From Ornithinibacter aureus (GTDB lineage Bacteria > Actinomycetota > Actinomycetes > Actinomycetales > Dermatophilaceae), in assembly GCF_009858245.1 (NCBI RefSeq), contig NZ_VMSB01000001.1:2857623-2921622 (forward strand): a stretch of DNA of 64,000 bases, given 5' to 3'. Under the pieces are notes generated by a model that did no database searches, was not told the DNA's origin, and worked only from the letters and a program-made list of their open reading frames with translations. Positions 8,536 to 54,975 of this stretch are shown here, one piece after another. The stretch's first letter is position 1, and the number at the start of each line of letters is the position of its first letter. Position numbers and translations under genes: made by a program.

Positions 8536-9180
8536 GTGAGCACCGATGGCGGACGACCCCTCCCGCGCCGGCCCCAGCCACTGGGCCCCGACGCGATGGA
8601 GTCGGTCGGCGGCACCCTGCCCGGGCCGGCCGAGGTCACCGAGATCGCGCACCAGAGCGCGGCGATCCTCGTCGGTGCCGGCCGCGCCACCTACGACCCC
8701 GAGGTGACCGGGCGGCTGGTCACCCTCGTCGACGACCTCGGGCTGTCGATCGTCGCCGACCTGTGGAGCGGGCGACCCGCGCGCTCGCTGCCCGGCACGT
8801 TGTGGCGCCTGTACGCGCTGCGCGAGTGGGTGCAGCGCAGCCCCGAGCAGGCCAGCCGCGAGTATGCCGCTGGCATCCGGTTCACCGACGTCGCCCACGC
8901 CGTCGCCGGCATCGCCGAGCCCCCGCGCCCCGAGGAGCTCCAGCGGGTCGCCGACCAGATCCTCACCGGGGTGTTCGACGGCGACCTGGCCGTCGCCCTG
9001 GAGCGGGCCTCGGCGTTCTGCTCCGTCGTCGCGGCGGGCCGTGCCGAGCTCGCGCACGACCGCGACAACGTCGACCCCGAGGGCGCGAGCGACCTCACCC
9101 GCACGGCCCTGGCGATGCTCACCACCGGGGAGGACCTGCGGGCCTGCGCCCGGCTCTGGCGGGCCGGCGACCTCCACTGA
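8536..9180 (+). CDS. Conserved actinobacterial hypothetical protein
   Basis: A 214-residue soluble, mostly helical protein with an acidic, low-lysine composition. No catalytic motif was recognised. The GTG start at 8536 follows a GATGAT hexamer by 6 nt, so the transcript may be leaderless. It is divergent from the YihY gene. A role cannot be proposed from sequence. Confidence 0.7.
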   Translation: MSTDGGRPLPRRPQPLGPDAMESVGGTLPGPAEVTEIAHQSAAILVGAGRATYDPEVTGRLVTLVDDLGLSIVADLWSGRPARSLPGTLWRLYALREWVQRSPEQASREYAAGIRFTDVAHAVAGIAEPPRPEELQRVADQILTGVFDGDLAVALERASAFCSVVAAGRAELAHDRDNVDPEGASDLTRTALAMLTTGEDLRACARLWRAGDLH

Positions 9181-9244
9181 GGTCGTGATGTCGTGGGGTC
9201 GCGGGTGCTCGTGAGCGGGCGACCTTCAACGAAGTGATGACGTC

Positions 9245-9277
9245 GGGAACACCTGGACGGCGATGAGGCGTTAGTGT
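9245..9277 (+). promoter_or_regulatory. Candidate promoter of the structured RNA
   Basis: Two readings fit: GGGAAC (9245-9250) and CGTT (9269-9272) separated by 18 nt, like ECF sigma promoters, or a sigma-A type -10 TAGTGT (9272-9277). Both would start RNA at or just before the base of the long stem. Confidence 0.35.
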
Positions 9278-9282
9278 CTCCC

Positions 9283-9373
9283 GTGGGTGCCGGACCGCGG
9301 CAGCCCCGGGTCCCAACATCAGCCGCTACGAGCGGCCACGCGCCGTGAGGCGCTCCCGGTCCGGCACCCGCAC
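9283..9373 (+). ncRNA. Candidate structured RNA / cis-regulatory leader
   Basis: A closing stem GGGTGCCGGACCG (9285-9297) pairs perfectly with CGGTCCGGCACCC (9357-9369) and extends by 3 bp past one bulged G. Inside it are hairpins GCCGCT-ACG-AGCGGC (9322-9336) and GCGCC-GTGA-GGCGC (9340-9353), giving a multi-branched fold. It does not match a riboswitch class that I know by sequence. It precedes the PhoU-like/Pit phosphate genes by about 185 nt. Confidence 0.4.
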
Positions 9374-9557
9374 TCCTTGGTGGCATCCGCCCTCGTGACA
9401 TGCAGAGGGCGCAGAATGCCGCCTCCTGTGCGTGTCACGAGCGCACCAGGGCCCGGCGCGAGCGCGACGGGAGGCCCGAGCGGTCCCCGGCTACCCGGCA
9501 TCCGCAGAGACGTCCTACGCTGTCGCTGACTGATCGGCCCCTTCCCCGGAGACCATC

Positions 9558-10181
9558 TTGGGCATCCGCCTCACCCCGCAGGACCCGCACTTCTTCGAGC
9601 TCTACGCCGCTGCCGCGCGGCACCTCGTCGAGGGTGCGGGTGAGCTGACGGCGCTGCTCGGGGCATCGGCGGAGGAGCGCGAGCTGACCCTGAAGCGCAT
9701 GCACGAGATCGAGGCGGCCTCGGGGGAGTCCACGCACGAGATCGTCCGCAAGGTCAACGGGTCGTTCGTGACCCCGTTCGACCGCACCGACATGCACGCG
9801 CTCGCCGTCGCCCTGCACACCTGCGTGGGGTTGATGGAGGCCGCCGTCGACCTCATCGTGCTGTACCGGGTCGACGAGGTGCTGCCACGGGTGGCCAAGC
9901 AGGTCGAGGTCATCTCGCGGATGGCTGAGATCACCGCCGACGCCATGACCCGGCTGCGCTCGATGAAGGGGCTCACGGCCTACTGGGTCGAGGTCGACCG
10001 GCTCGAGAACCGCGCAAACAAGGCCTACCGCCGCATGCTCGCCGAGCTGTTCAACACTCCCGGCGCAGACCCCATCACCGTGATGAAGCACAAGGACATC
10101 ATCGACGCCCTCGAGGCGGCGGCCAACGGCTTCGAGGCGGTCGCGCTCAAGGTCGAGGCGATCGCCGTCCGGGAGTCCTGA
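9558..10181 (+). CDS. DUF47/PhoU-like protein, Pit accessory
   Basis: A 207-residue helical protein of the DUF47 family, related to PhoU. It shows the helical bundle pattern with acidic metal-binding stretches such as KRMHEIEAASGESTHEI, typical of PhoU-like folds. The start is TTG at 9558 with GGAGA 5-10 nt upstream. It lies 5 bp before the Pit transporter gene, and DUF47-Pit pairs are common in bacteria, where DUF47 is thought to modulate the low-affinity phosphate carrier. Confidence 0.9.
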   Translation: MGIRLTPQDPHFFELYAAAARHLVEGAGELTALLGASAEERELTLKRMHEIEAASGESTHEIVRKVNGSFVTPFDRTDMHALAVALHTCVGLMEAAVDLIVLYRVDEVLPRVAKQVEVISRMAEITADAMTRLRSMKGLTAYWVEVDRLENRANKAYRRMLAELFNTPGADPITVMKHKDIIDALEAAANGFEAVALKVEAIAVRES

Positions 10182-10186
10182 GGCCC

Positions 10187-11191
10187 GTGGACTGGGTCCC
10201 CGTGGCGCTCGTCGTCGCCCTGGCGATGGGCTTCACGTACACGAACGGTTTCCACGACGCCGCGAACGCCATCGCGACCTCGGTGTCGACGCGGGCCCTG
10301 ACCCCGAAGATCGCGCTCGGGCTGGCAGCGACCATGAACCTGCTCGGCGGGTTCGCCGGGGTCCGGGTGGCGCAGACCATCGGCGCGGACATCATCTCGG
10401 TGCCCATGGGGGGCGCCGGCGTGGCCGTGTGTGCCGCTGCCCTCGTGGGGGCGATCTGCTGGAACATGCTCACCTGGTGGCGAGGGATGCCGTCCTCCTC
10501 GTCGCACGCGCTCATCGGCGGGTTGGGCGGCGCGGCGCTCGCGGCCGGTGCGGCCGGCGCCACGGTGAAGTGGCAGAGCATCCTGGACAACGTTCTGGTG
10601 CCGATGCTGCTCTCGCCGGTGCTCGGCCTCCTCGGCGGGTTCGCCGTCATGACCGCGATCCTGTGGCTGTTCCGTCGGTCGGCCCCCGGGCCCACGGCGC
10701 GCGGCTTCCGCTATGCCCAGACGGTGTCGGCGGCCGCCATGGCCTTCGGCCACGGCATGCAGGATGCCGCGAAGACCGCCGGTGTCGTGGCCCTCACCCT
10801 CGTGGCGAGCGGGCACCGGTCACCGGACGACCTGTCGATCCCGTGGTGGGTCATCGCCTCGTCGGCCGTCGTGCTCGCCCTCGGGACGTACGCCGGGGGG
10901 TGGCGGATCATCCGCACCCTCGGCAGCCGCATCATCGACCTGACGCCGCCGCAGGGGTTCGCGGCCGAGGCGACGGCGGCGACGGTGCTCTACGTCGCGA
11001 CCGCCACCGGTGCCCCGATCTCGACGACGCACGCGATCTCCTCGGCGATCGTGGGCGTCGGCGCGACCCGGTCGGCCAAGTCGGTGCGATGGGGGGTGGC
11101 GCGGTCGATCGTCATCGCCTGGGTGCTGACCTTCCCGGGCGCAGGCCTCGCCGCGGTGGTCGCCTACGAGCTGCTCACCCTGGTCACCTGA
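10187..11191 (+). CDS. pit: Low-affinity inorganic phosphate transporter, PiT family
   Basis: A 334-residue polytopic permease. The duplicated PiT signature is visible: GFTYTNGFHDAANAIATSVSTR region near the N-terminus (GFHDAANAIATS) and the second copy in GAPISTTHAISSAIVGVG. It couples phosphate (as a metal complex) to protons or sodium at the cell membrane. The start is GTG at 10187, 5 bp after the DUF47 gene, so the two are translated from one mRNA. The window also has the high-affinity Pst system. Confidence 0.95.
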   Translation: MDWVPVALVVALAMGFTYTNGFHDAANAIATSVSTRALTPKIALGLAATMNLLGGFAGVRVAQTIGADIISVPMGGAGVAVCAAALVGAICWNMLTWWRGMPSSSSHALIGGLGGAALAAGAAGATVKWQSILDNVLVPMLLSPVLGLLGGFAVMTAILWLFRRSAPGPTARGFRYAQTVSAAAMAFGHGMQDAAKTAGVVALTLVASGHRSPDDLSIPWWVIASSAVVLALGTYAGGWRIIRTLGSRIIDLTPPQGFAAEATAATVLYVATATGAPISTTHAISSAIVGVGATRSAKSVRWGVARSIVIAWVLTFPGAGLAAVVAYELLTLVT

Positions 11192-54897: not shown

Positions 54898-54975
54898 GGG
54901 CGTCTTTGCCTTTCCTTCACCGGCAGGAACGTGCCGGACGATCCGTTGTAAAGGTGTTGCTCCCGCCCACATCGG

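Follow-up and report, generated by a model that had tools for sequence, protein, structure and literature searches.

The stretch of DNA analysed here (the window; 64,000 nucleotides of Ornithinibacter aureus) contains, between the end of a gene encoding a 214-aa protein (9180) and the start of a DUF47 gene (9558), an intergenic region with a promoter followed by an RNA of approximately 85 nt. The features, in window positions, are as follows.

8536–9180, + strand: neighbour gene, encoding a 214-aa protein with no assigned family
9246–9272, + strand: SigH/SigR-type promoter GGAACA-N18-GTT (GGAACA at 9246–9251, 18 bp, GTT at 9270–9272)
9285–9369, + strand: structured small RNA, the conserved unit (from the fold, homolog distribution and covariation)
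9285–9297, + strand: 5' arm of P1, GGGTGCCGGACCG, pairing with 9357–9369 (13 of 13 bp)
9299–9303, + strand: 5' side of the inner helix (GG 9299–9300 with CC 9355–9356; AG 9302–9303 with CT 9353–9354)
9304–9316, + strand: C-rich strand CCCCGGGTCCCAA, the proposed contact site (from column conservation)
9322–9336, + strand: P2 hairpin GCCGCT-ACG-AGCGGC (6 bp)
9340–9353, + strand: P3 hairpin GCGCC-GTGA-GGCGC with a GNRA loop (5 bp)
9357–9369, + strand: 3' arm of P1, CGGTCCGGCACCC, pairing with 9285–9297
9389–9444, no strand assigned: inverted repeat GTGACATGCAGAGG...TGTCACGAG (20-nt arms, 85% complementary)
9558–10181, + strand: DUF47/PhoU_div protein (PF01865), not a constant neighbour
10187–11191, + strand: Pit-type phosphate transporter (PF01384)

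Fold and compensatory changes

Direct reading of the sequence confirms the perfect 13-bp closing stem and the two perfect internal hairpins described in the initial annotation; P1 encloses the C-rich strand and both hairpins. The fold of positions 9281–9375 has an energy of −57.5 kcal/mol, compared to −42.5 ± 3.5 kcal/mol in shuffled sequences (z = −4.24; none of 200 shuffles as good), and the whole intergenic region (377 nt) is only slightly better than its shuffles (z = −1.76; 6 of 100 as good). The GGG of the C-rich strand is mostly paired in single-sequence folds. The RNA core might also pair with itself via a CCCGGG palindrome, the predicted energy of such a duplex being −14 kcal/mol.

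Among 61 distinct sequences, standard pairs occupy 98.9% of the pair cells (86.5% when shuffled), with two-sided changes in 16 of 24 pairs. For 96 distinct sequences and the refined structure, in alignments which, like all of A3–A5, were fitted to a covariance model and hence favour the structure of that model, 97.1% of the cells are paired (82.9% when shuffled), two-sided compensation is seen in 17 of 25 pairs, and the covariation is 0.430 versus 0.147 in shuffled alignments, none of 500 shuffles being as high; slid controls are just 30–44% paired. Model R1, however, used just 25 family sequences as input, and the compensated changes in other families emerged after it had been made. Alignment A5 covers 96 of 250 sources (the window and loci L001–L249) picked so as to be diverse; near-duplicates were omitted, as were most of the named loci of the exact-pattern scan. 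A chance fold is ruled out by the shuffle comparison and by the compensation in the 96 sequences. The structured RNA that had been proposed is real and has survived the check for compensatory changes named as capable of refuting it.

The helices differ in how they are conserved. P1 shows two-sided changes at all 11 modelled pairs of the 96-sequence set, its sequence being free to vary while the helix is retained. The inner helix is weaker than P1, with 94.2% (GG/CC) and 83.9% (AG/CT) of the cells paired; its last pair occurs as GC, AU, CG and UA and is unpaired in 18 of 96 rows, partly owing to alignment shifts in the Streptomyces-type rows (this label and Mycobacterium-type are ones we infer for genomes, with the gene neighbours as part of the basis). 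In the same set, P2 is paired in 98.3% of the cells, with one pair compensated (CG/UA/GC) and four invariant, and the four core pairs of P3 are paired in 99.5%, two of them being invariant. Columns at least 99% identical over 97 rows make up 7 of 13 positions in the C-rich strand, 9 of 15 in P2, 6 of 12 in P3 and 0 of 22 in P1. The C-rich strand, P2 and P3 together form a conserved head, in which the C-rich strand is no more conserved than the two hairpins.

Distribution in Actinomycetes

Two of three other genomes of the same genus match over exactly 9243–9369, without the rest of the intergenic region; G001, the third, is 83% complete and gave no hit for the RNA. The approximately 185 nt between the RNA and DUF47 were not found conserved in any of these three genomes. 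As the same-genus matches are confined to 9243–9369, the unit consists of the promoter and the RNA.

At the family level, blastn finds the RNA in 175 of 186 genomes; two of the 11 misses (G081 and G082, 99% complete) yielded it in the model search, hence blastn understates its presence. The covariance model of 25 family sequences matches 295 of 297 genomes of the order, mostly with one copy each, the two misses being genomes of 0.8–0.9 Mb. In a draw from the phylum, the first model matches 27 of 248 genomes, all inside the class, and in another draw the second model (62 sequences) matches 14 of 197, again all inside the class. Within the class, the second model matches 167 of 295 genomes, 134 of these matches lying outside the order, and 128 genomes gave no match. 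Model searches of over 40 genomes applied stricter Infernal filters, and their counts are hence lower bounds; for one Mycobacterium-type genus (that of G520), 40 genomes were searched without such filters, and 19 gave a match and 21 none.

An exact-pattern scan gave, among the matches listed, copies confirmed by the model in Kocuria dechangensis, Nesterenkonia, Janibacter corallicola, Nostocoides jenkinsii, Arcanobacterium, Nocardioides, Haloactinopolyspora alba, Gordonia, Rhodococcus globerulus and Mycolicibacterium iranicum. The carrier lineages that were looked up are Micrococcales, Actinomycetales, Propionibacteriales, Jiangellales and Mycobacteriales. Plasmid copies occur in Arthrobacter and in Rhodococcus jostii (pRHL3).

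Several single observations may be added. Part of the Streptomyces-type RNA is matched by 32 Rhodococcus plasmid records, three of them confirmed by the model, and in the plasmid copies L298, L299 and L302 the RNA has no annotated feature. A record labelled Bacteriophage sp. from human faeces (MT838127.1) has both the RNA (96.5% identity) and the 214-aa gene (82%); it is probably a bacterial contig filed as phage. One genome holds tandem copies (locus L127, 1790–1877 and 1972–2059), and the listed genomes of one genus (g66) have two to four copies each.

Promoter, neighbouring genes and readings tied to them

The pattern GGAA-N18-20-GTT lies at most 90 nt upstream of the RNA in 57 of 97 aligned copies and downstream in one of 97 (shuffled mean 1.0, largest 5); an earlier count with a slightly wider pattern gave 67 of 93 rows (A3 and A4). 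It is absent from 40 of the 97 copies, several of which show by eye TTGAC-type −35 sites instead. According to excerpts of the published reports, the consensus is GGAAT-N18-19-GTT for SigR of S. coelicolor (PMC9205884) and GGAAYR-N17-18-GTT for SigH of M. tuberculosis (PMC4803200); the window promoter at 9246–9272 agrees with the latter consensus as quoted there. By sequence pattern, the RNA has a promoter of its own, as is expected of a small RNA, both in the window and in the 57 copies, and control by SigH/SigR is probable in the lineages which carry that promoter. The transcript would start at about 9279–9283, judging by the position of the promoter. Of the earlier promoter readings, the ECF-like one is right (GGAACA-N18-GTT at 9246–9272), while neither the TAGTGT reading nor a second promoter in front of DUF47 gained support, as the sigma-70 scan found no site in 9181–9560.

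At the other end, a hairpin of at least 9 bp with at least three T follows 26 of 97 copies (shuffled mean 4.6, largest 11), and without the T rule hairpins follow 43 of 97, versus 22.3 in shuffles; this loose test covered 80 nt downstream and used mononucleotide shuffles. A strict terminator scan found none in the window. The inverted repeat at 9389–9444, 3' of the RNA, may be the transcript end in this genome, its sequence passing the loose hairpin count and failing the strict terminator scan. Sequence related to this repeat is present at two places in G001.

Neighbouring genes were called by a simple GC-based gene caller and by tblastn with seven reference proteins. None of the seven is found beside 21 of the 97 copies. 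Seven Streptomyces-type copies lie between the genes of a HelD-type helicase (matching 6yxu_H, E = 1.5e-28) and malic enzyme, and five Mycobacterium-type copies between whiB and a convergent accD; the other flanks, from Pfam scans, include L,D-transpeptidase, DNA polymerase III alpha (dnaE), glyoxalase, hydantoinase and more. In one of these Streptomyces-type loci (L080, 1501–1589, + strand) the RNA, together with its promoter, sits between the HelD and malic-enzyme genes in the orientation opposite to that of the six other copies, as is expected for an independent gene. The RNA therefore behaves as a gene independent of its neighbours, which is what one looks for in a trans-acting small RNA.

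A cis-acting leader (riboswitch or attenuator) of the DUF47–Pit phosphate operon, the role first suggested for this RNA, would agree with the multi-branched fold, the variable P1 and the conserved junction, and also with the genes themselves: among the 97 copies, 24 are followed on the same strand by DUF47 and 27 by Pit, and on an Arthrobacter plasmid the distance is 40 nt. However, 73 of the 97 rows have no DUF47 match on the stretch covered (a median of 1,500 bases downstream, less than 1,000 in 3 rows, such that some matches were possibly missed). The gap to DUF47 varies from 71 to 722 nt, terminator-like hairpins follow 26 of the 97 copies, the next gene is convergent in the five Mycobacterium-type copies, and the intervening DNA was not found conserved within the genus. 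Hence the RNA does not stand regularly in front of one functionally coherent set of genes, as a DUF47–Pit riboswitch should; the tie to this operon is not general, other copies adjoining malic enzyme, convergent accD, dnaE and other genes, and a leader function is highly improbable. A conserved RNA with a link to stress appears a better description than a phosphate riboswitch, and the initial annotation was right in allowing for a free small RNA.

The 214-aa gene is kept near the RNA in several orders. Of the 97 copies, 62 have it on the same stretch, 54 of these 62 within 15–220 nt, so that the RNA could be read as a 3'-untranslated element or terminator of this upstream gene. On the other hand, a promoter pattern lies between the gene and the RNA in many copies; the gene is on the opposite strand in 5 of the 62, once upstream and four times downstream (convergent), the remaining 57 being upstream and in the same orientation as the RNA; and many RNA-carrying genomes yielded no match to it. 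We consider a 3' element hardly credible. A search for the protein in 42 genomes selected for this comparison was positive in 11 and in none of the Streptomyces-type or Mycobacterium-type genomes among them, which are RNA carriers nonetheless; a need of the RNA for this protein was thus rejected. The 214-aa protein has no Pfam or NCBIfam family and no PDB sequence match better than E = 0.07. Its all-helical AlphaFold model, with a mean pLDDT of 88.5, matched no PDB fold at E = 0.001 or lower and hence offers no clue.

Proposed role and comparison with known systems

The comparison of copies yields the fold, a wide and mostly single-copy distribution, changing neighbours and the GGAA-N18-20-GTT promoter in 57 of 97 copies. 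Our main reading is that the RNA is the product of a free-standing small-RNA gene, found across the class Actinomycetes and acting in trans, that is linked to SigH/SigR and contacts G-rich sites by its C-rich strand (probability about 0.6). That it is a free trans-acting small RNA is very likely; that the C-rich strand acts as an antisense is a guess that could well be wrong. In the proposed mechanism, SigH/SigR, the sigma factor of thiol-oxidative stress, would recognize the promoter, hence the RNA should accumulate under such stress; P1 would clamp the conserved head, and the C-rich strand CCCCGGGYYCCAA would bind G-rich sites, probably in ribosome-binding regions of mRNAs, as 6C RNA does. 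In a more far-reaching version, which we offer tentatively, the RNA would be a class-wide core RNA, absent from Rfam and older than the orders, would serve as the RNA arm of the response to thiol-oxidative stress under SigH/SigR, and would act by means of a nearly invariant C-rich junction strand.

The own genome contains 106 matches with at most two mismatches to the complement of the 13-nt C-rich strand (one of them being the RNA gene), versus 105 for the reversed control. As the complement is not enriched, long pairing is unlikely, and a long antisense seed in the own genome was rejected. Among the 30 of 106 complement sites that were examined, one, with 2 mismatches, is near a same-strand start as called by the simple gene caller. 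By analogy, the modes that remain are short pairing to G-rich sites, as reported for 6C/B11 in the accessible text of PMC10470900, or binding of a conserved protein.

In the latter case the RNA would bind a protein or ribonucleoprotein, as 6S, Ms1 or CsrB-type RNAs do, with no base pairing to mRNA, and one conserved protein, RNA polymerase or the ribosome would recognize the junction head, that is, the C-rich strand and the GNRA hairpin. The absence of enrichment of long complementary sites agrees with this, as does the spread of the columns at least 99% identical over the C-rich strand (7 of 13), P2 (9 of 15) and P3 (6 of 12); given this spread, a protein or ribosome partner fits as well as a seed. 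Nevertheless, the searched Streptomyces-type and Mycobacterium-type carriers of the RNA yielded no match to the commonest neighbour protein, no candidate partner has emerged, and 6C/B11 provides a precedent of base pairing by a C-rich unpaired RNA. We therefore regard a purely protein-binding function as rather unlikely and prefer a trans-acting RNA contacting G-rich sites.

Actinomycetes include both antibiotic producers and pathogens. To our knowledge, they lack Hfq, and we know of few trans-acting RNAs that span a whole bacterial class. The RNA turned up in almost every genome sampled from one order and in many genomes of other orders, and most aligned copies have a stress-sigma promoter pattern. 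It offers a defined, testable handle on post-transcriptional control in Actinomycetes, and a covariance model would let genome annotation find it.

The initial annotation recognized no known class and suggested an Rfam search, which bears it out. No Rfam 15 family exceeds the gathering threshold over the RNA in a scan of the window; within 9181–9600, at E up to 10, only sR35, snoPyro_CD and MIR918 appear, all far below threshold; and in 15 loci with homologs no match over the RNA is seen at E up to 1. These searches rule out a known Rfam class: this is a small-RNA family, widespread in Actinomycetes, for which no entry was found in the Rfam library. Excerpts of the open-licence literature, outside which most subscription papers lie, gave no report on the class-wide conservation, this structure or SigH/SigR control. 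Elsewhere in the window there is an msiK RNA (54904–54962, − strand; RF01747, 58.6 bits).

The scr names presumably follow the neighbouring gene, and we take SCO2951 to be the malic enzyme. By position only, the S. coelicolor member of the family is probably scr2952. According to the accessible parts of the sources, scr2952 is a confirmed sRNA conserved in over half of the tested Streptomyces (PMC8388888) and SCO2952 is HelD (PMC8655204); by its name scr2952 adjoins the HelD gene, and the Streptomyces-type copies also adjoin a HelD relative. Expression of the RNA in S. coelicolor is thus likely, as far as these excerpts and the HelD neighbourhood go. However, the same excerpt of PMC8388888 places scr2952 in Rfam, whereas the RNA in four Streptomyces-type loci matched no Rfam 15 model, so the two could differ.

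The GC-IGR motifs of Streptomyces (dauA, livJ, pntA, asfR) are likewise structured actinobacterial candidates, some with three-stem junctions, but they lie upstream of named genes and occur only or mostly in Streptomyces (PMC11109978, in excerpt). The main text of that paper, in its accessible part, has no mention of malic, malate or phosphate transporter.

For this RNA no 6S match was found in Rfam (9181–9600, E up to 10). Ms1 is about 300 nt long. Ms1 and 6S-like RNAs are, like this RNA, widely conserved actinobacterial noncoding RNAs, but Ms1 binds the core of RNA polymerase (PMC9130861, in excerpt), and the unit described here is approximately 85 nt.

Membership in the 6C family was rejected: there are no two stem-loops with C-rich loops and no match to an Rfam model. 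6C RNAs, as excerpted in PMC8388888, have two stem-loops with six or more C, whereas here the C-rich strand lies in the junction. Still, 6C RNA (B11 in mycobacteria) resembles this RNA, going by the accessible descriptions, in being actinobacterial and structured and in having C-rich unpaired segments. B11 represses eccB4, in whose 5' UTR six G stand in a row, and mutations were used to test the two C-rich loops of B11 (both from excerpts of PMC10470900).
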